NCBI GenBank assembly: GCA_013180605.1
Contig: QBUL01000182.1
Span: 1 to 41,111, forward strand
Length of the DNA: 41,111 nucleotides
Direction: 5' to 3'
From: Candidatus Methanophagaceae archaeon GoMg1
GTDB lineage: Archaea > Halobacteriota > Syntropharchaeia > Alkanophagales > Methanospirareceae
Shown piece after piece: positions 11,383 through 28,440 of the stretch; positions within the stretch are counted from its first letter, which is position 1, and every line of letters starts with the position of its first letter. The position numbers were made by a program, and so were the translations under genes. Below the pieces are notes generated by a model. That model was not told the origin of the DNA. It searched no databases and saw only the letters and a list, made by a program, of their open reading frames with translations.

Positions 11383-11652
11383 ATGCAGAATAGGAATGGA
11401 GAATGGCTATTTGGAAAGATGAAAGGGCAGTTCAGAACCAATATTCTTTTTCAAGCCCTTCCATACACTATTCTTATTTCCGCACTCACCATCACCGGCT
11501 TATTCGGCGGTTTCGCACTCGGCAATCGGTGGGAAAGCAGCAATATAGCAGGCTTTGCCTTTTCTCTTTCTTTCTCTCTTCTCGGCTTCTTTCTCGGATT
11601 CCTTATTTCTTACCTCGTCGTGAAGAAGAAGTATCTGGTGGAAGGTTTGTGA
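11383..11652 (+). CDS. Small two-TM membrane protein (AtpI-like?)
   Basis: 89 aa; two hydrophobic segments; directly downstream of atpK. Confidence 0.5.
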   Translation: MQNRNGEWLFGKMKGQFRTNILFQALPYTILISALTITGLFGGFALGNRWESSNIAGFAFSLSFSLLGFFLGFLISYLVVKKKYLVEGL

Positions 11653-11839
11653 TGGAAAAGAGAAAATAATAAAAGGATACATTATAATTGAATGAAGTAA
11701 GAGAAACTTCAGGTGACAGCATCTGGGTGGTCCATTACGTAAATCTTTGGTACTTTTGAGATATAGATTGAACTCCCTCCCACACTTTATGAGATAGGTT
11801 TTAAATAGATTAGTATAAAATTATTAGTAAGGTGATAAA

Positions 11840-12112
11840 ATGAGCGAGTGCCCCGATTATAAAACTATGAATGCAACAGAAAATAATGATATAAAACCTA
11901 AAATAATAATCAGAGCTATCCCATTAGCAATTTTTATATCACTCATTACTATCTTAGGGATGTTGCGTGGCTATAGACTTGGAATAATAACAAACAGCGA
12001 TTTCATCCTTTTTGTATCAGTTACTTCTTCCGCATTTTTTTGTTTTATATATTCAATATTGTTCTTGTATTTTAACGAAACTTCTGAATATCCGTGGCGA
12101 ATTTGGAAATAG
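11840..12112 (+). CDS. Small two-TM membrane protein, divergent paralogue of the 11383 ORF
   Basis: 90 aa; IIIRAIPLAIFISLITILGMLRGYRLG versus ILFQALPYTILISALTITGLFGGFALG. Confidence 0.5.
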   Translation: MSECPDYKTMNATENNDIKPKIIIRAIPLAIFISLITILGMLRGYRLGIITNSDFILFVSVTSSAFFCFIYSILFLYFNETSEYPWRIWK

Positions 12113-12134
12113 ATATTTTAAAAATACAACAATC

Positions 12135-13625
12135 TCACAAAATCTTTTTCCTTTGTTCGCCTATTATTCTGTCAAGAGTTGCTATGAATTTCTCTTCAGA
12201 CCCCTCGGGGATAGACGCCCCTGCGGCAACGGGATGCCCGCCACCAAAACCACCTACTTCTTTCGATGCTTTCTCCATTGCTTTAGCGAGGTCTATTCCA
12301 TCTTCCTTGCCTTCTGCGATGAGTTTCTTACTACACCGTGCCGATATTTTTGTTTCCGCCCTTGCACCTTCTTCATCTCTTGTTTTCATGTTTAATGCGA
12401 TTACTGGCTTCGCAGGGTATAAATATTCTGCTACTATTCCATCTAAAATGCCTGTTACTCCTCGCTCCTGCACGTAAAAGTAGAAAATGGCAGGTAACTC
12501 TTTTATGATTCCTTCGCCACTTTCTATTCTATTTAATTCAGAAACAAGTTTGCTCTGGAACTGCATATATAGCGAAACGGCTGCTTCTATCATTTTGCCA
12601 TCACGCAGGCACAGACCTATTCCCACGCCCGCTTTTCCAAACCGACCGCAAGCATCCACCATTCTCATTAAATCTATCCCCTTTCTCACCACTTCGGCAT
12701 TCAGAATATACGTGTTTCCAACCAGCGCATCCCGGTTAATAGCCGCTCCCGCGTTAGACTCGAGGGACAGCGATAACAAAGCAGCAGTCAATCGCCTTTC
12801 CTCTTCTTCCTCTAAATCGCGGATATTTCTATCACCTTCAATATCCAGTTTTTTCAAAAACGCATCCACCCACTCAACCTTACCCGCAAGCGGGATATAC
12901 GGGTCGGTGGAGAAAAGAATCAAATCACGAATTTTTCCATCGCCGAGTTTCAACCCCTTTTCGACTGAAATAACACCCTCTTTTATTGCCTCATCCAGAA
13001 TCATTTTGTTTGTCCCTGTGTCTATCCGCAATTTATCTCCTAAGGTGCCTGCTACTGCGAGACCCGCGAGGTCTATGTTGCCCATGCCGTCACTCGACAA
13101 GCGTCTTGCCACGAGATACGAGAGCCCCGCGGCACAAATATCGCCTTCTATCTCTTTTTCTTCTTCCCCTTTCCCTTCCTTGCCCCTTACCCCCGTGTAG
13201 GCGCTCTCGGGAAGATACGGGTTTATGAGGGCAAAAGAGGCGGGAAGTGAAGAAACGAGCTCATTGATCGGGGTTGGGGAAGTCAAAGGTGGCGTATGGT
13301 GGTCTATGATTATAACATCCTTCTCGTTGAGATGCGCTGAAATCAAGTCCAACTGCGCAGTGCCCATATCGCAAATTATAATAAGCGGGTCATTTAACCC
13401 CTGAATAAAAGAATCCTCTAATTTGCTTACAATCGTCGTATGGAACTGTATTTCTCTTCGAAGCAAAGCATTGCAGATAATCCCTGCAGAGGTTATTCCA
13501 TCTGCATCGTAATGCGAGACAATCCTTGCGTAATCATGTCTCTTTATCAGTTCCACTGCCTTTTCCATGCCCTTTTGCACGCTTATCATGCTACAATAAT
13601 TAATAGTATGGTCATATATCCTCAA
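12135..13625 (-). CDS. DHH/DHHA1 phosphoesterase, archaeal RecJ-like single-strand exonuclease
   Basis: 496 aa; VSHYDADGITSAGII, IICDMGTAQ, IIDHHTPP, GFGGGHPVAAGASIP. Confidence 0.92.
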   Translation of the reverse strand: MRIYDHTINYCSMISVQKGMEKAVELIKRHDYARIVSHYDADGITSAGIICNALLRREIQFHTTIVSKLEDSFIQGLNDPLIIICDMGTAQLDLISAHLNEKDVIIIDHHTPPLTSPTPINELVSSLPASFALINPYLPESAYTGVRGKEGKGEEEKEIEGDICAAGLSYLVARRLSSDGMGNIDLAGLAVAGTLGDKLRIDTGTNKMILDEAIKEGVISVEKGLKLGDGKIRDLILFSTDPYIPLAGKVEWVDAFLKKLDIEGDRNIRDLEEEEERRLTAALLSLSLESNAGAAINRDALVGNTYILNAEVVRKGIDLMRMVDACGRFGKAGVGIGLCLRDGKMIEAAVSLYMQFQSKLVSELNRIESGEGIIKELPAIFYFYVQERGVTGILDGIVAEYLYPAKPVIALNMKTRDEEGARAETKISARCSKKLIAEGKEDGIDLAKAMEKASKEVGGFGGGHPVAAGASIPEGSEEKFIATLDRIIGEQRKKIL

Positions 13626-22292: not shown

Positions 22293-22556
22293 TTATTCTC
22301 CTGAAGTTGCATATATTTCATAGGGCATTATCTTCTTGTTCGCCTTCTTCTTCCCTCTTAACTTACTCACGAGGTCGGCGGCTTTCTCCTTCTTCTCCCG
22401 TTTCTTCAACCGTTCCATCAGGTTCGTCATCTCTTTCTCCTTTCCCGCACCGCCGTATTCCTTCTGTTCCGCTTTTACATACCCGTCCTCCTCTTCTATT
22501 TCCTCTTCTTCACCTTCCTCTTCCATTCCTTCAAAAACCAATGCGTTTTCGTCCAC
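22293..22556 (-). CDS. Candidate Pup/UBact-like small protein modifier
   Basis: 87 aa, GTG start; acidic N-half, Lys-rich C-half, ends PYEIYATSGE*; immediately downstream of the dop/pafA/ARC-like cluster. Confidence 0.65.
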   Translation of the reverse strand: MDENALVFEGMEEEGEEEEIEEEDGYVKAEQKEYGGAGKEKEMTNLMERLKKREKKEKAADLVSKLRGKKKANKKIMPYEIYATSGE

Positions 22557-22637: not shown

Positions 22638-24203
22638 CTAAAAGATCACCTTATCAGGATACAACTCCTTTGCGGCTGATAGAACATCCTCTATTTGCTT
22701 TCCCTCCTCCATTTTCGTCCCTATCTCTTCCTTATTCAACATAAACGGCTCATCCAGCATTATTTTCGCCTCATCCAGCACCATCGTTGACCAGCTTACA
22801 CTTCGCACATGCGAGCCATACCTTCTCAGCATTTCAACCTTGAAAAAGTCCCGTGTCTGTTCGGGTGCATTATGCAAAGCGTATTTCACCCTATCCGATA
22901 AAGCCCACCAATCAACTTCAGGCAATGCTCGCTTTGCGAATGCCTGCGACTCCTTCGGATTGTAAAGGCAACTGCCTTTCAGACTGTCTTCACCATCCTG
23001 AATGCCGTACAGCGCACTTTCGTCCACCAGTGCGTATTGGTTACAGACGCTTATTCCTTCAGCGGCGTTTTTTGGCTCATAATTCACAAGCAATGCCAGT
23101 TTCGTCACCCAGTCTATCCCATCCACGTATTTTTCGAGCTGCCGCGTTTCTAAGTCCTCTATCACTCCTTTTAAGCCTTTTCTTCCTATTTCCGTCCATT
23201 TTTGGTCTTCTTTTTCATCTCCCATCTCTTCATACATCGCCTCTATCCGTTCGTGATAAAATCGAAGAATGGAAACGGCATCCGTGGACTCGCCGTTCTT
23301 CAACTTTAGCTTCCACTCGCATTCCTGTGTATCTGCCGATATCTTTTTGAACGTTCTTACAGGATCTTCTATCTCTGGAGCATCGTCCAGAAACCCGGAT
23401 TCAAATGCACTGATTACCATCGCCTGTGCAATGTCACGCAAGAAAATCGCGTATTCAGAACGAAGCGCTTCGTAATGTATGTCGTGCAGTCGCCAGTATT
23501 GACGTGCAGCATGCGGCTGGTCTCGCGTGTTCAGAATACCTCTGCCCACCGTGGTCGAAAGAGAGGATGGATGAACAACAAACATCGCTCTTGGCGAAAT
23601 AACGAACTTCACTCCCTCTTTACCAATAGTGTCTCCCGAAACAACGTCTCCTGACCCGGTGAACAGTATTCTTGTAACCATCCAGGGTATTAGCGCCTTC
23701 TCTACGCGACTCCAATCCCTGCACGCTGCCCTTTTTGTTATTATATTCCCGTGTGTAGCGTAAGTATTGGTCTTTACTCTTTTCGCACCTGCACTGCCCG
23801 CACCCGAGCGACTGAAGAAATTCGCAACGTTATTTTTATGGACAACCACTTTTTTCTTTAACGCCAGACTCGCCTCTTTTGATCCCATAAAAGCATATAT
23901 CTCAGATGCTTTGTCGTATGCCACGGCATCAAACGGGTTGTTGTAAGAAGGCGTTGATATTTCAAGATGCCCCATATCGTTATAAATCCGGCATCCGTTT
24001 TCACCAAACGAAGAAGCTATTTTCGATTCATGCGCCTCTTGCGATACCTCTGTAGCGGTGTCCCAGTTCACATCGCGTGAAAATTTTCTTCGTTTTAATC
24101 CCTGAATCGCAGCGTTAACGAGCAAAGACGGATTTAAACTTACTTTTATACTCAACGGATATTCCTGCTCTATCCCTCTTATCTTATTTTCCGTCCCTGC
24201 CAC
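22638..24203 (-). CDS. dop: Dop-like Pup deamidase/depupylase family protein
   Basis: 521 aa; GIEQEYPL, VNWDTATEVSQEAHESK, ENGCRIYNDMGHLEISTP, KNNV, GILNTRDQPHA, TRDFFKVEMLRRYGSHVRSVSWSTMVLDEA matches the Dop C-terminus TRAYFRGECLRRFG..ASWDSVIFD. Confidence 0.88.
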   Translation of the reverse strand: MAGTENKIRGIEQEYPLSIKVSLNPSLLVNAAIQGLKRRKFSRDVNWDTATEVSQEAHESKIASSFGENGCRIYNDMGHLEISTPSYNNPFDAVAYDKASEIYAFMGSKEASLALKKKVVVHKNNVANFFSRSGAGSAGAKRVKTNTYATHGNIITKRAACRDWSRVEKALIPWMVTRILFTGSGDVVSGDTIGKEGVKFVISPRAMFVVHPSSLSTTVGRGILNTRDQPHAARQYWRLHDIHYEALRSEYAIFLRDIAQAMVISAFESGFLDDAPEIEDPVRTFKKISADTQECEWKLKLKNGESTDAVSILRFYHERIEAMYEEMGDEKEDQKWTEIGRKGLKGVIEDLETRQLEKYVDGIDWVTKLALLVNYEPKNAAEGISVCNQYALVDESALYGIQDGEDSLKGSCLYNPKESQAFAKRALPEVDWWALSDRVKYALHNAPEQTRDFFKVEMLRRYGSHVRSVSWSTMVLDEAKIMLDEPFMLNKEEIGTKMEEGKQIEDVLSAAKELYPDKVIF

Positions 24204-24604: not shown

Positions 24605-24730
24605 CTAAATGCTTCTCAGAATGGAAAAATATTCTTCCCTTGTCATCCCAACTGTTTTCATGTTGCCTCGTATGACCGTTACAGGGATTTCATCATATTT
24701 TGGGATGACTACGGCTCTTTTCGCATTTTC
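24605..24730 (-). pseudogene. HicA-like toxin C-terminal remnant
   Basis: Reads ENAKRAVVIPKYDEIPVTVIRGNMKTVGMTREEYFSILRSI*, HicA/YcfA-type C-terminus; upstream part overlaps hicB in another frame. Confidence 0.6.
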
Positions 24731-24948
24731 AACACCTCATCCTCTACGGCATAACCTGCTTCTGCCAAAAAATCGTTCAACGTCCCAAGCTCGGCTGTTT
24801 CTTCCAGTTGTATCTCTATAACCTCTCTCAAATTCTTCTTTGCTTCTTCAGATGTATGACCACAACTTGCAACGTCCAACTCGGGGCAATATGCCGTGAA
24901 CATCCCTCCTTCCTTCCATATTTCAACAGTAGCGATTATCTTTTTCAT
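24709..24948 (-). CDS. HicB-like protein
   Basis: 79 aa; ATVEIWKEGGMFTAYCPELDVASCGHTSEEAKKNLREVIEIQLE; starts about 6 nt after the pafA-like stop. Confidence 0.85.
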   Translation of the reverse strand: MKKIIATVEIWKEGGMFTAYCPELDVASCGHTSEEAKKNLREVIEIQLEETAELGTLNDFLAEAGYAVEDEVLKMRKEP

Positions 24949-24954
24949 TGCTAG

Positions 24955-26712
24955 CTAAACCTCTTCTTCCTCGCCCCTGCTCTCCTCCTCTGCCCTGTTT
25001 ATCTCTTCTAACCGTTTCTTTATCGTGTCCTCATTCCAGCCATCCAGTTCATCAAATCTATACGTCTTATTATTAGAATACAACAAATAATCTAAATACG
25101 GATTCCTGACTATTCTGTTCCTTATCTCGCGGCTTATCTCCTCCTCCCAGCCTCTTACGTCTTCTTCCTCTGCCAGAAGCCGCACAAGAACCTGCCTCGT
25201 TGCCTCACCTCGCCTCCGTTCACGCAAAAACACCACCACCGCGCTTGGCATCCTCGCAAGTTCCGGATACCGTTCAAACATCCGCGAATACTCTTCTCCC
25301 GTTGGTCTACCCATGTCTATCTTTATCTTTGGCTCCCTGTTTATCGTTATCTTATTCCAGCTCAGTGCGGCATTCCCGAATTCCGATGCAAGTCTTACCC
25401 TCAGCTCCGCCCTTGAATCCTTCGGTGGAAATAACAACGCTTCTCCTATCTCCTCTTCTGTTAATATTCGTTCAACGCCTATTTTATCCGCTATGCGCTC
25501 GTATAGGTCATAATCGCAGAGATTGGTAAAATCAAACGAAGCCGCTATCTCTTTCTCCATCTGCTCATCCATCATGTAGATGCTCCGATAATCGAATTTC
25601 CCTTTTGATGTGTATTTATAATCAAAATCATCTATCTCGTTCTTTATCACCCATAATTTCAGCACCCATTCCAAACGCCGTACCACATAAGGGTCTTCAA
25701 GCAATCCCTGCCTGAACTTATCACAAAGCCTCTTGAACGTATCCAACACGTATTTGTCCCAATAGGACGTCTCTCGTTCTTCAAACAGCTCCTCGATCAC
25801 CGCGAGATAATTCGTCTCTAAGTAATCAATCGCTAGCTCAGTCCTTCCGTTCGTCAGTTTTACCCGCCAATCGCCTTCGGTATTTGCTGAAATGTCTTTA
25901 AATGTTTGAAGTGGATTCCAGATGTCTTCCACATGCGAGAGTTTTCCTGTTTCTATTGCATCCAGAACGTACGATGTGAGCGCATTATTAAGCAGCCGTG
26001 TAACTTCCGAGCGAACACCTTCTCCCGATGTGACATGCACACGGTATTTATCTTTTGTGCCCAACGGCTCATCGCGTGTAGACAATATTGGCCATTGAGA
26101 CGGCGACTCGGTAAGAACCCGCTTTGAAACCATCGCTTTCGGTGAAATCACGTATTTTAACCCCTCTTTCTCCGCTACAAAACCGCCAGCACCAAAAAAT
26201 ATCTTACGAAGTACTAAAAAAGGTATAAACAGATTCTCTTTACCCACAAAGTTCCGCCGCACCACCGCATAGGATTCGTGCGTGCCCCTGCTGTATCTCT
26301 TGTCTATCTCTACGTTTGCTTTCCAGCACTGGATGTATGAAGGGGCATTTGCCCTTTTTATCAATTTCTCCCGGTATTTTTTATTTGCTTGCTCTACACC
26401 TATCTGCATATACAGCTCCGCGGCTTTATCGTATTTCAGCGCCTCGAAGGCATTTCGGCACTCGGGTGTGGCTATCTCCAGGTGACCTCCCGTGCAGATA
26501 TAAATCCGCGAGCCGTTTCTCAAAAACCCGTCGTTTCTCCGCCGCAGCTTCGAGCATATCGCATCCGTTCCGTCAAAAAAGGTATACGTCTCAAGTGCAT
26601 GAATCACTTCGTCAACATGATAAAATCTCGCATACCTGTACAAACCAGGCGATTCTGAACTTATACCCACTCTAAATTCGTGCTCTACCCCTTGCCATTT
26701 GTTCAGATCCAT
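24955..26712 (-). CDS. pafA: PafA-like Pup ligase family protein
   Basis: 585 aa; GVEHEFRVG, RNGSRIYICTGGHLEIATPEC (compare [21 protein letters not shown]), ILSTRDEPLGTKDKYRVHV, NPLQTFKDISANTEGDWRVKLTNGR, EEIGEALLFPPKDSRAELRVRLASEF. Confidence 0.9.
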   Translation of the reverse strand: MDLNKWQGVEHEFRVGISSESPGLYRYARFYHVDEVIHALETYTFFDGTDAICSKLRRRNDGFLRNGSRIYICTGGHLEIATPECRNAFEALKYDKAAELYMQIGVEQANKKYREKLIKRANAPSYIQCWKANVEIDKRYSRGTHESYAVVRRNFVGKENLFIPFLVLRKIFFGAGGFVAEKEGLKYVISPKAMVSKRVLTESPSQWPILSTRDEPLGTKDKYRVHVTSGEGVRSEVTRLLNNALTSYVLDAIETGKLSHVEDIWNPLQTFKDISANTEGDWRVKLTNGRTELAIDYLETNYLAVIEELFEERETSYWDKYVLDTFKRLCDKFRQGLLEDPYVVRRLEWVLKLWVIKNEIDDFDYKYTSKGKFDYRSIYMMDEQMEKEIAASFDFTNLCDYDLYERIADKIGVERILTEEEIGEALLFPPKDSRAELRVRLASEFGNAALSWNKITINREPKIKIDMGRPTGEEYSRMFERYPELARMPSAVVVFLRERRRGEATRQVLVRLLAEEEDVRGWEEEISREIRNRIVRNPYLDYLLYSNNKTYRFDELDGWNEDTIKKRLEEINRAEEESRGEEEEV

Positions 26713-26802: not shown

Positions 26803-28440
26803 CTAAAAGTGCATCCCTGTTTCTTCCTCTGGCATCTCGCCAAACCCAGATGTCAATATCTCCTCTGCTCTTCGCTCCACAAACTTGTCAAAACCCTCTT
26901 TCAGATGCCGCATATTTACTCCTATCTCCTCTATGCGTTTATACCGCTTCTGCAAGTCCTTCGTCTTGTCCCCCGCATCTAATATCGCTGCGATTCCCTC
27001 CTTATCCCACATTCTTCGCATATCCTCGTTGCTGATAACTCCTTTTTTCAACATCAGCAATGTCCTCTCCTCCAATGCCTTATCCCTTGCATAATTGAAT
27101 ATCTGCGATATAAACCGCCCTGTTATCGTATCCGCCCTCTTTATCCTCCCTATTTGTGTCTCAACATACTTATCACTGTACATATAGCCGACAATCTCTT
27201 TCACCAGATGCAACCTCGCTTCTTCTTCTCCTCCCACTTCCTTTATCAAGTAGTGGTCAACAGGAATCTTTTTAGCATATAGGGCGGCAATAGAAGACAC
27301 CGCTTCCTTATCAGGCTTTGGAACCTCAATTATCTTGTCAAATCTCGCCCTGAATGCTGAATCTATAAGATACAACCTGTTTGTCGCTCCTATCACCGTA
27401 AGGTGTGGGTGCAGAGCATTGAATCCTTCTAAGAGGTCAAGTAGCTGCCCGGTAACTCTCTCCGGCGCTCCCGAAGAGCCCGTGTACATCCCTCTTTCCT
27501 GTGCTAACGCATCTATCTCATCAAAGAAAATCACACCATAGTCATTTTCCCCTTCCTCTAATTTCGCGTTCGCCGCCTCGAACACCATTCGCACATTGCG
27601 CTCTGATTCACCGAGCCACATACTGAAAAGTTCTCCTGCCCCTATCTTTACAAATTCACAGTTGGGTAATGCCGATGCCAACGCCTTTGCACACATCGTT
27701 TTCCCGCAGCCCGGCGGACCGTACATTAATATTCTTCGTGAGCATTCGCCATATTTTGTATAATCATCGGGGTTCACCATCGGAAGAACAATACTCTTTA
27801 TTAATTCCTGCTTTATCTCCTTTAAACCACCAATGGCATTAAAACTCACCCCAGGATTCTTTGTGACTTCATAGCGGGATATTGCCTTTGCCTTGTAACT
27901 CTTCTTTATGTCATACGTGCCGGGGAGAAGCCCCACCTTCATCCCCTCTTTTAGCATTTCCGTTTCATCTTTTCTCAGCCTTTTATATATTCTACCACGT
28001 CCTTTCCCGGTTGATATTTCTCCAACCCATCCCTCGTCGTCCTGCATCAACTCTTCTATCTCGCCCACTTCTAAATCCACCATTCTGTCGTATACCTTCG
28101 TGATGCCTATGGTAAATCCACTGGGGTTGTTCCTGTCCGGGATACGCCCTACAAATACAAATTTACCCGCCTTCAAATCCTTTATCTCCATCTCTGTTAG
28201 CGTTCCATAAGGTAAAGCCTTTAATGCACCATTCAGATTAACAATGGCGCCTTCTTCCGTCTTCTCCACTACAAATCCACAGTCCAGAGGCGGCGACCGT
28301 GATTTAGACACGAGTTTCTCCAAATCCAGTTTATACGCCTCTGTCTCCTCGTATTTCCTCATCAACCGCCGATAGTCGCTCTCTAACCGCTCATACTCGT
28401 ATCTTGGGATATAGTCCCCCTCTATTTCTTCCATCATCAA
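26803..28440 (-). CDS. ARC/Mpa-like proteasome-forming AAA+ ATPase
   Basis: 545 aa; N-terminal coiled coil, OB-like region, GPPGCGKTMCAKALA, VIFFDEIDALAQERG, ARC-type C-terminal block VGYMYSDKYVETQIGR..TITGRFISQIFNYARDKALEE. Confidence 0.9.
   Translation of the reverse strand: MMMEEIEGDYIPRYEYERLESDYRRLMRKYEETEAYKLDLEKLVSKSRSPPLDCGFVVEKTEEGAIVNLNGALKALPYGTLTEMEIKDLKAGKFVFVGRIPDRNNPSGFTIGITKVYDRMVDLEVGEIEELMQDDEGWVGEISTGKGRGRIYKRLRKDETEMLKEGMKVGLLPGTYDIKKSYKAKAISRYEVTKNPGVSFNAIGGLKEIKQELIKSIVLPMVNPDDYTKYGECSRRILMYGPPGCGKTMCAKALASALPNCEFVKIGAGELFSMWLGESERNVRMVFEAANAKLEEGENDYGVIFFDEIDALAQERGMYTGSSGAPERVTGQLLDLLEGFNALHPHLTVIGATNRLYLIDSAFRARFDKIIEVPKPDKEAVSSIAALYAKKIPVDHYLIKEVGGEEEARLHLVKEIVGYMYSDKYVETQIGRIKRADTITGRFISQIFNYARDKALEERTLLMLKKGVISNEDMRRMWDKEGIAAILDAGDKTKDLQKRYKRIEEIGVNMRHLKEGFDKFVERRAEEILTSGFGEMPEEETGMHF

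Follow-up and report, generated by a model that had tools for sequence, protein, structure and literature searches.

The small gene at positions 22293-22556 raises the question of whether an archaeon tags its proteins with a modifier of the Pup type. Pupylation is described as bacterial, and the known archaeal tags, the SAMPs, which are beta-grasp modifiers ending in GG and served by an E1-like enzyme, represent an unrelated chemistry. The gene lies in a window of 41,111 nucleotides, the whole stretch of DNA that was analysed, which forms part of a 2.34-Mb draft genome (86% complete) of Candidatus Methanophagaceae archaeon GoMg1. The initial annotation, made from the letters of the window, proposed a Pup/UBact-like modifier. 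The conserved G-[E/Q] terminus and the arc-pafA-dop-tag organisation of the locus support the proposal in its Pup-like form: with a probability of about 0.87, the gene encodes a Pup-like tag by which an archaeal pupylation system delivers proteins to the 20S proteasome, a reading in which we infer conjugation, the directions of the two enzymes and degradation. The gene and its most conserved part are placed as follows.

22293..22556, minus strand: candidate Pup-like modifier of 87 aa with a GTG start, ending ...YATSGE; marked by order-wide conservation, a G-[E/Q] terminus and a pN/pS of 0.04 in the last 18 codons
22296..22349, minus strand: frozen C-terminal tail, the last 18 codons, ending ...NKKIMPYEIYATSGE; predicted docking and conjugation segment, with the terminal Glu as the predicted attachment point

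The 87-aa reading frame was recovered letter for letter at 22293-22556, down to its C-terminus ...NKKIMPYEIYATSGE; its coordinates stand, and the strand, which had been left unstated, is minus. The charged composition with a basic second half was also borne out, the net charge being -14 over residues 1-38 and +8 over residues 39-87. Residues 42-66 were considered as a single amphipathic helix, and this candidate was set aside after a one-helix calculation gave no support for amphipathicity.

We built a profile of the tag from 16 copies and searched it in 50 genomes of the order, which comprises Methanophagales (ANME-1) and Ca. Alkanophagales, and in 29 genomes outside it. The tag was found in 46 of the 50, in one copy each and rarely two (E 1e-25 to 1e-43), with relatives spanning 15 genera of two families, and in none of the 29 outside genomes, which were drawn from other orders within its class or phylum. 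The enzyme family PF03136 occurs in 52 of the 53 sampled genomes of the order and in none of 344 from elsewhere in the phylum, so that the tag and the enzymes have one sharply bounded distribution in common. Viral contigs contained no relatives of the tag or of the PafA-like or Dop-like protein, and a search of plasmids returned matches from Actinobacteria only. Four genomes of the order gave no match to the tag profile: in G024 and G032 the contig stops right at dop, G002 is a fragmentary genome with the PafA-like gene present as fragments only, and G037 is missing the whole system, pafA and dop included. Variable C-termini, or genomes keeping pafA and dop while lacking the reading frame, had been named beforehand as the patterns that would speak against a modifier. 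Neither was encountered, the absences coinciding with contig ends, a fragmentary genome or missing pafA and dop.

The conservation is concentrated at the end of the protein. Among 47 distinct tag sequences, the N-terminal part is drifting and very acidic while the C-terminal half is nearly frozen, and the last 18 codons combine a mean pS of 0.73, with synonymous sites near saturation, and a mean pN of 0.027, a ratio of 0.037. This ratio implies that the tag is translated and that strong purifying selection acts on the protein, mainly at its C-terminus. A chance reading frame is ruled out by the conservation and the pN/pS; and since the selection signal tracks the minus-strand frame, the opposite-strand reading frames overlapping the tag are not the coding frame.

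The penultimate residue is Gly in all 47 sequences, of which 46 close with Glu and one with Gln. At position -3, 45 sequences have Ser and two have Ala, giving 45 SG[EQ] and two AGE ends; the tail residues N, K, I, M, Y, E, I, Y, A, T and G are identical in every sequence, and an additional, 48th sequence has the SGE terminus too. The lengths lie mostly between 79 and 97 aa, the longest-ORF starts reaching 123. In size and terminus the tag agrees with the description of Pup as a protein of 50-90 aa with a C-terminal G[EQ], whose gene always adjoins a PafA gene (Iyer 2008, PMC2588565). The invariance of GE-COOH that had been proposed as a check on aligned orthologues therefore holds for the Gly throughout and for the Glu with a single exception, the tag of genome G012 (loci L059 and L066), which ends in ...PYEIYATSGQ. 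The earlier suggestion that a terminal Glu makes deamidation by Dop unnecessary is likewise sound for 46 of the 47 sequences, and in G012 the terminal Gln means that deamidation would be required. If the gamma-carboxylate is reactive and Gln can be deamidated, a terminus that is otherwise frozen should alternate between Glu and Gln; this alternation, typical of Pup, is hard to understand unless the terminal side chain is the reactive group.

The call had relied in part on the position of the gene, and its neighbours were verified as Dop-like, PafA-like and ARC/Mpa-like. They are arranged in the window as follows.

22638..24203, minus strand: Dop-like enzyme of 521 aa (Pup_ligase, PF03136), with the ATP/Mg motif GIEQEY, the catalytic Asp76 and W47-D48
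23976-23978, minus strand: codon of Dop-like Asp76, which corresponds to D94 of A. cellulolyticus Dop in an alignment with Dop
24709-24948, minus strand: small HicB/UPF0150-like antitoxin-type ORF between the PafA-like and Dop-like genes
24955..26712, minus strand: PafA-like enzyme of 585 aa (PF03136), with G(V/I/L)EHEF kept, PafA-type motif spacing and a C-terminal extension of about 100 aa
26494-26496, minus strand: codon of the invariant PafA-like Cys73, at the position of the PafA catalytic Asp64 in the alignment
26803..28440, minus strand: ARC/Mpa-like proteasomal AAA ATPase of 545 aa, with a helix, two OB-like barrels and an AAA module
26806-26820, minus strand: ATPase C-terminus TGMH(F/Y/L), invariant in 22 sequences

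The order ATPase, PafA-like, Dop-like and tag on a single strand recurs in nearly all loci that span it, and the ATPase gene belongs to the same operon in nearly every one. The tag is the last gene of the operon and follows close behind dop in most genomes, mostly 34-152 nt downstream, so that it adjoins a gene of the PafA/Dop family as pup does. In Nonomuraea the order reads ARC-Dop-Pup, and its dop-pup order is matched by the adjacency of dop and tag. Tags unlinked from dop have the same terminus (G048, G049, G036 and G021); in the two Alkanophagales genomes, G021 and G036 the gene lies in mid-contig, away from dop. Conservation of the tag is thus independent of its linkage, and the tag is not a passenger of the operon.

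Several loci depart from the compact arrangement. In the window, an insertion consisting of the HicB-like ORF and about 0.5 kb separates the PafA-like from the Dop-like gene; the gap between these genes is 0.6-1.2 kb in some other genomes and almost nil in most. On a 13.6-kb contig of another genome, the dop-tag pair occurs twice, inverted, near both ends and with equal scores (G042:C191:257-2174 and 11477-13391), either by duplication or as an assembly artefact. In genome G014 (L068/L094) the Dop-like gene reads as two overlapping frames, the result of either a frameshift or a fault in the assembly.

Both enzymes belong to the Pup-ligase family over their full catalytic region, one with Dop-type and the other with PafA-type spacing. 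The Dop-like protein scores 223.6 bits and the PafA-like protein 198 bits against PF03136 (cut-off 25), and the archaeal profiles align with the solved structures of Dop (4b0r, 5lrt, 9cku) and PafA (4b0t, 4bjr) at E values of 1e-22 to 1e-44. The 27 PafA-like and 37 Dop-like sequences all carry the ATP/Mg motif GhExE. The Dop-like enzyme has Asp76 in 37 of 37 sequences, with the Dop-type spacing DxxHLE, and shows DxGHLE, S/A-T-P and the TT..R of the alpha loop. Its W47-D48 is invariant at the position of the Dop loop, which is shortened to about 22 residues from W to NG, against 40-65, with a conserved Trp, in Dop. The corresponding D94 of A. cellulolyticus Dop is the most likely activator of water (PMC8599861).

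The PafA-like enzyme differs from its bacterial counterparts at the catalytic centre. Membership in the family was correctly assigned by the initial annotation, which overlooked a change of the catalytic Asp to Cys: the conserved Asp64 of PafA, its proposed catalytic base (PMC3511204), is replaced by Cys in 27 of 27 sequences. The crystallised PafA-Pup fusion 4bjr has Asn at this position. The positions typical of PafA are present, namely the insertion after the catalytic residue, Gly66, Ala72, Thr73 and Phe54 (Table 1, PMC7947786). The Glu of HxE is retained, with HES replacing HEN, and SPSQW takes the place of the alpha-loop TT..R. Conservation at 70% or above, with the ATP/Mg residues retained, indicates that the enzyme is not decaying. 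An AlphaFold model of the enzyme was discarded at a mean pLDDT of 42. A divergent third PafA-like paralogue of about 500 aa is scattered over a few genomes of the order (L108:5918-7423, L109:4095-5672, L110:2039-3523; fragments in L111, L112 and L113, with the gene in pieces in G017). It has HEN rather than HES and no second tag gene alongside, and it likewise carries Cys at the Asp64 position, from which it follows that the Cys is of long standing in the order and presumably serves a function.

An invariant Cys in place of Asp64 means that either the chemistry of ligation by the PafA-like enzyme must differ or the roles of the enzymes have changed. With changed roles, the Dop-like protein would act as the ligase or in both directions, and the PafA-like Cys enzyme would be regulatory, a scaffold or catalytically altered. 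We consider such a division of labour unlikely; as a sub-case of a working tag system, its probability overlaps that of the main reading. It would fit with the confinement of the catalytic Asp to the Dop-like enzyme, and 20 substitutions suffice to make Dop a ligase (PMC7947786). The archaeal pair also branches apart from the bacterial pair, so the functions may have been assigned independently. In a tree with long branches, built from eight sequences of each archaeal enzyme and five from bacteria (all actinobacterial, three of them partial), the two archaeal enzymes are joined against the bacterial pair. A grouping of the PafA-like enzyme with bacterial PafA was rejected by the AU test (p 0.0007, and 0.024 on a stricter column set). 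The roles are therefore assigned here by motif and not by orthology, and an independent duplication is not claimed on the basis of five actinobacterial sequences and long branches. The motifs argue against the exchange of roles: DxGHLE, S/A-T-P, TT..R and WD are found in the Dop-like enzyme, and the PafA insertion, Gly, Ala-Thr and Phe in the PafA-like one, which keeps its ATP/Mg residues under the conservation given above.

With the roles as in bacteria, the pathway of the archaeal tag can be outlined as follows. Through its conserved basic C-terminal half and the frozen NKKIMPYEIYATSG tail, the disordered tag would dock in the groove of either enzyme, PafA-like or Dop-like. The PafA-like ligase, with ATP and Mg on the GhExE motif, would phosphorylate the gamma-carboxylate of the terminal Glu, and a substrate lysine would attack the activated Glu to form an isopeptide bond. 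With an invariant Cys standing in for the catalytic Asp64, ligation would be assisted by a Cys thiolate acting as base or nucleophile, or by another residue. A form of ligation in which Cys73 is the nucleophile, passing the tag from the acyl-phosphate of its Glu through a thioester to the lysine, would give a ligase of the glutamine-synthetase type a covalent step like that of E1/E2 enzymes; we regard it as improbable. The Dop-like enzyme, with its catalytic Asp kept, would remove the tag, and would deamidate it in the sole Gln-terminal lineage. The ARC/Mpa-like ATPase would bind the tag by its N-terminal coiled coil, unfold the substrate and feed it to the 20S proteasome. If the tag is conjugated, trypsin would leave a long IMPYEIYATSGE remnant on the lysine.

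The ATPase and the Pup-proteasome ATPase model TIGR03689 are collinear from one end to the other (18-458 on 12-457), at a score below the curated cut-off, and PAN models align with the ATPase mainly over the AAA module and its approach. A low-confidence structural model (mean pLDDT 59) predicts a helix at residues 13-46 followed by two OB-like barrels and the AAA module, which in the order of secondary structure is the coiled coil, tandem OB and AAA arrangement of ARC/Mpa; the 13 best Foldseek matches of this model are all Mpa. The archaeal protein ends in TGMH(F/Y/L), against GQYL in Mpa, so that the tail MH(F/Y/L) stands for the HbYX-type QYL and has His where HbYX has Tyr; it is possibly a variant of a gate-opening tail. 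The genome encodes two 20S subunits of the proteasome family (PF00227) and, separately, a bona fide PAN scoring above its cut-off, which leaves the second, ARC-like ATPase free for a special route.

The presence of PAN and the imperfect gate-opening motif of the ATPase would also suit a tag that is conjugated and serves mainly as a non-degradative mark in regulation or quality control, as suggested for pupylating bacteria without proteasomes. The ATPase gene shares the operon nearly everywhere and 20S subunits are present, and we hold a chiefly non-degradative role to be rather improbable.

The initial annotation described the similarity to Pup as weak. Apart from the Pup-like terminus, no similarity was detected: the Pfam hits collected for 16 members, at E values up to 10, included no match to Pup, a weak test for a short disordered protein; the PDB gave no match to Pup; and the hhalign probability against Pup was 0.1%, which for such a protein is weak evidence either way. 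The tag has no Pfam match of any significance, HrpJ and other weak matches being below their cut-offs and rejected as low-complexity noise. The term Pup-like is therefore used in a functional sense and does not imply common descent with Pup. The absence of Pup homology, together with a frozen region of 18 residues that exceeds what a GG[EQ] signature needs, would be in keeping with a small disordered protein that serves the ATPase or proteasome as a cofactor, in assembly or as an adaptor, and has a C-terminal GE by coincidence. This appears very unlikely, given that the last residue is limited to Glu or Gln after an invariant Gly and that the tag is strictly co-distributed with two enzymes of the Pup-ligase family rather than with proteasomes generally.

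A Pup-like tag of this kind shares with the Pup of Actinobacteria (PF05639) a length of about 50-90 aa, low complexity, presumable disorder and a Gly-Glu or Gly-Gln end, as well as a gene directly behind dop and, at the same locus, a PafA-family gene and a proteasomal ATPase. It differs in its archaeal host, in a YATSGE tail in place of YVQKGG[EQ], in a strongly basic second half where Pup is acidic overall, and in a locus that does not lie beside the 20S genes. UBact of Gram-negative bacteria has the tail (S/T)G(E/Q) and a gene beside PafA/Dop homologues and a proteasomal ATPase, and is the nearest match for the tail in words, by its general description rather than by its sequence. With the SAMPs the system would share archaeal tagging linked to proteasomes, here with a low-complexity tag and glutamine-synthetase-like ligases.

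A search of an open-access library found no paper that connects ANME-1 or these archaea with pupylation. If the reading is correct, Pup-type, ubiquitin-like tagging chemistry would extend to a second domain of life and operate throughout an order of archaea that also have PAN, raising the question of the origin of pupylation and of the ARC ATPase. The PafA-like enzyme, if a ligase, would be a natural variant with Cys replacing the catalytic Asp. ANME-1 are major consumers of methane, and the tag thus bears on protein turnover in very slow-growing archaea.

A Pup-bearing locus was also seen in an unverified 'Bacteriophage sp.' record from human faeces (MT835496.1; L126:4246-7311), where an ARC-Dop fusion ORF of 1021 aa is accompanied by a Pup ending in VQKGGQ and a PafA-like gene. 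The record is most likely a mislabelled actinobacterial contig.
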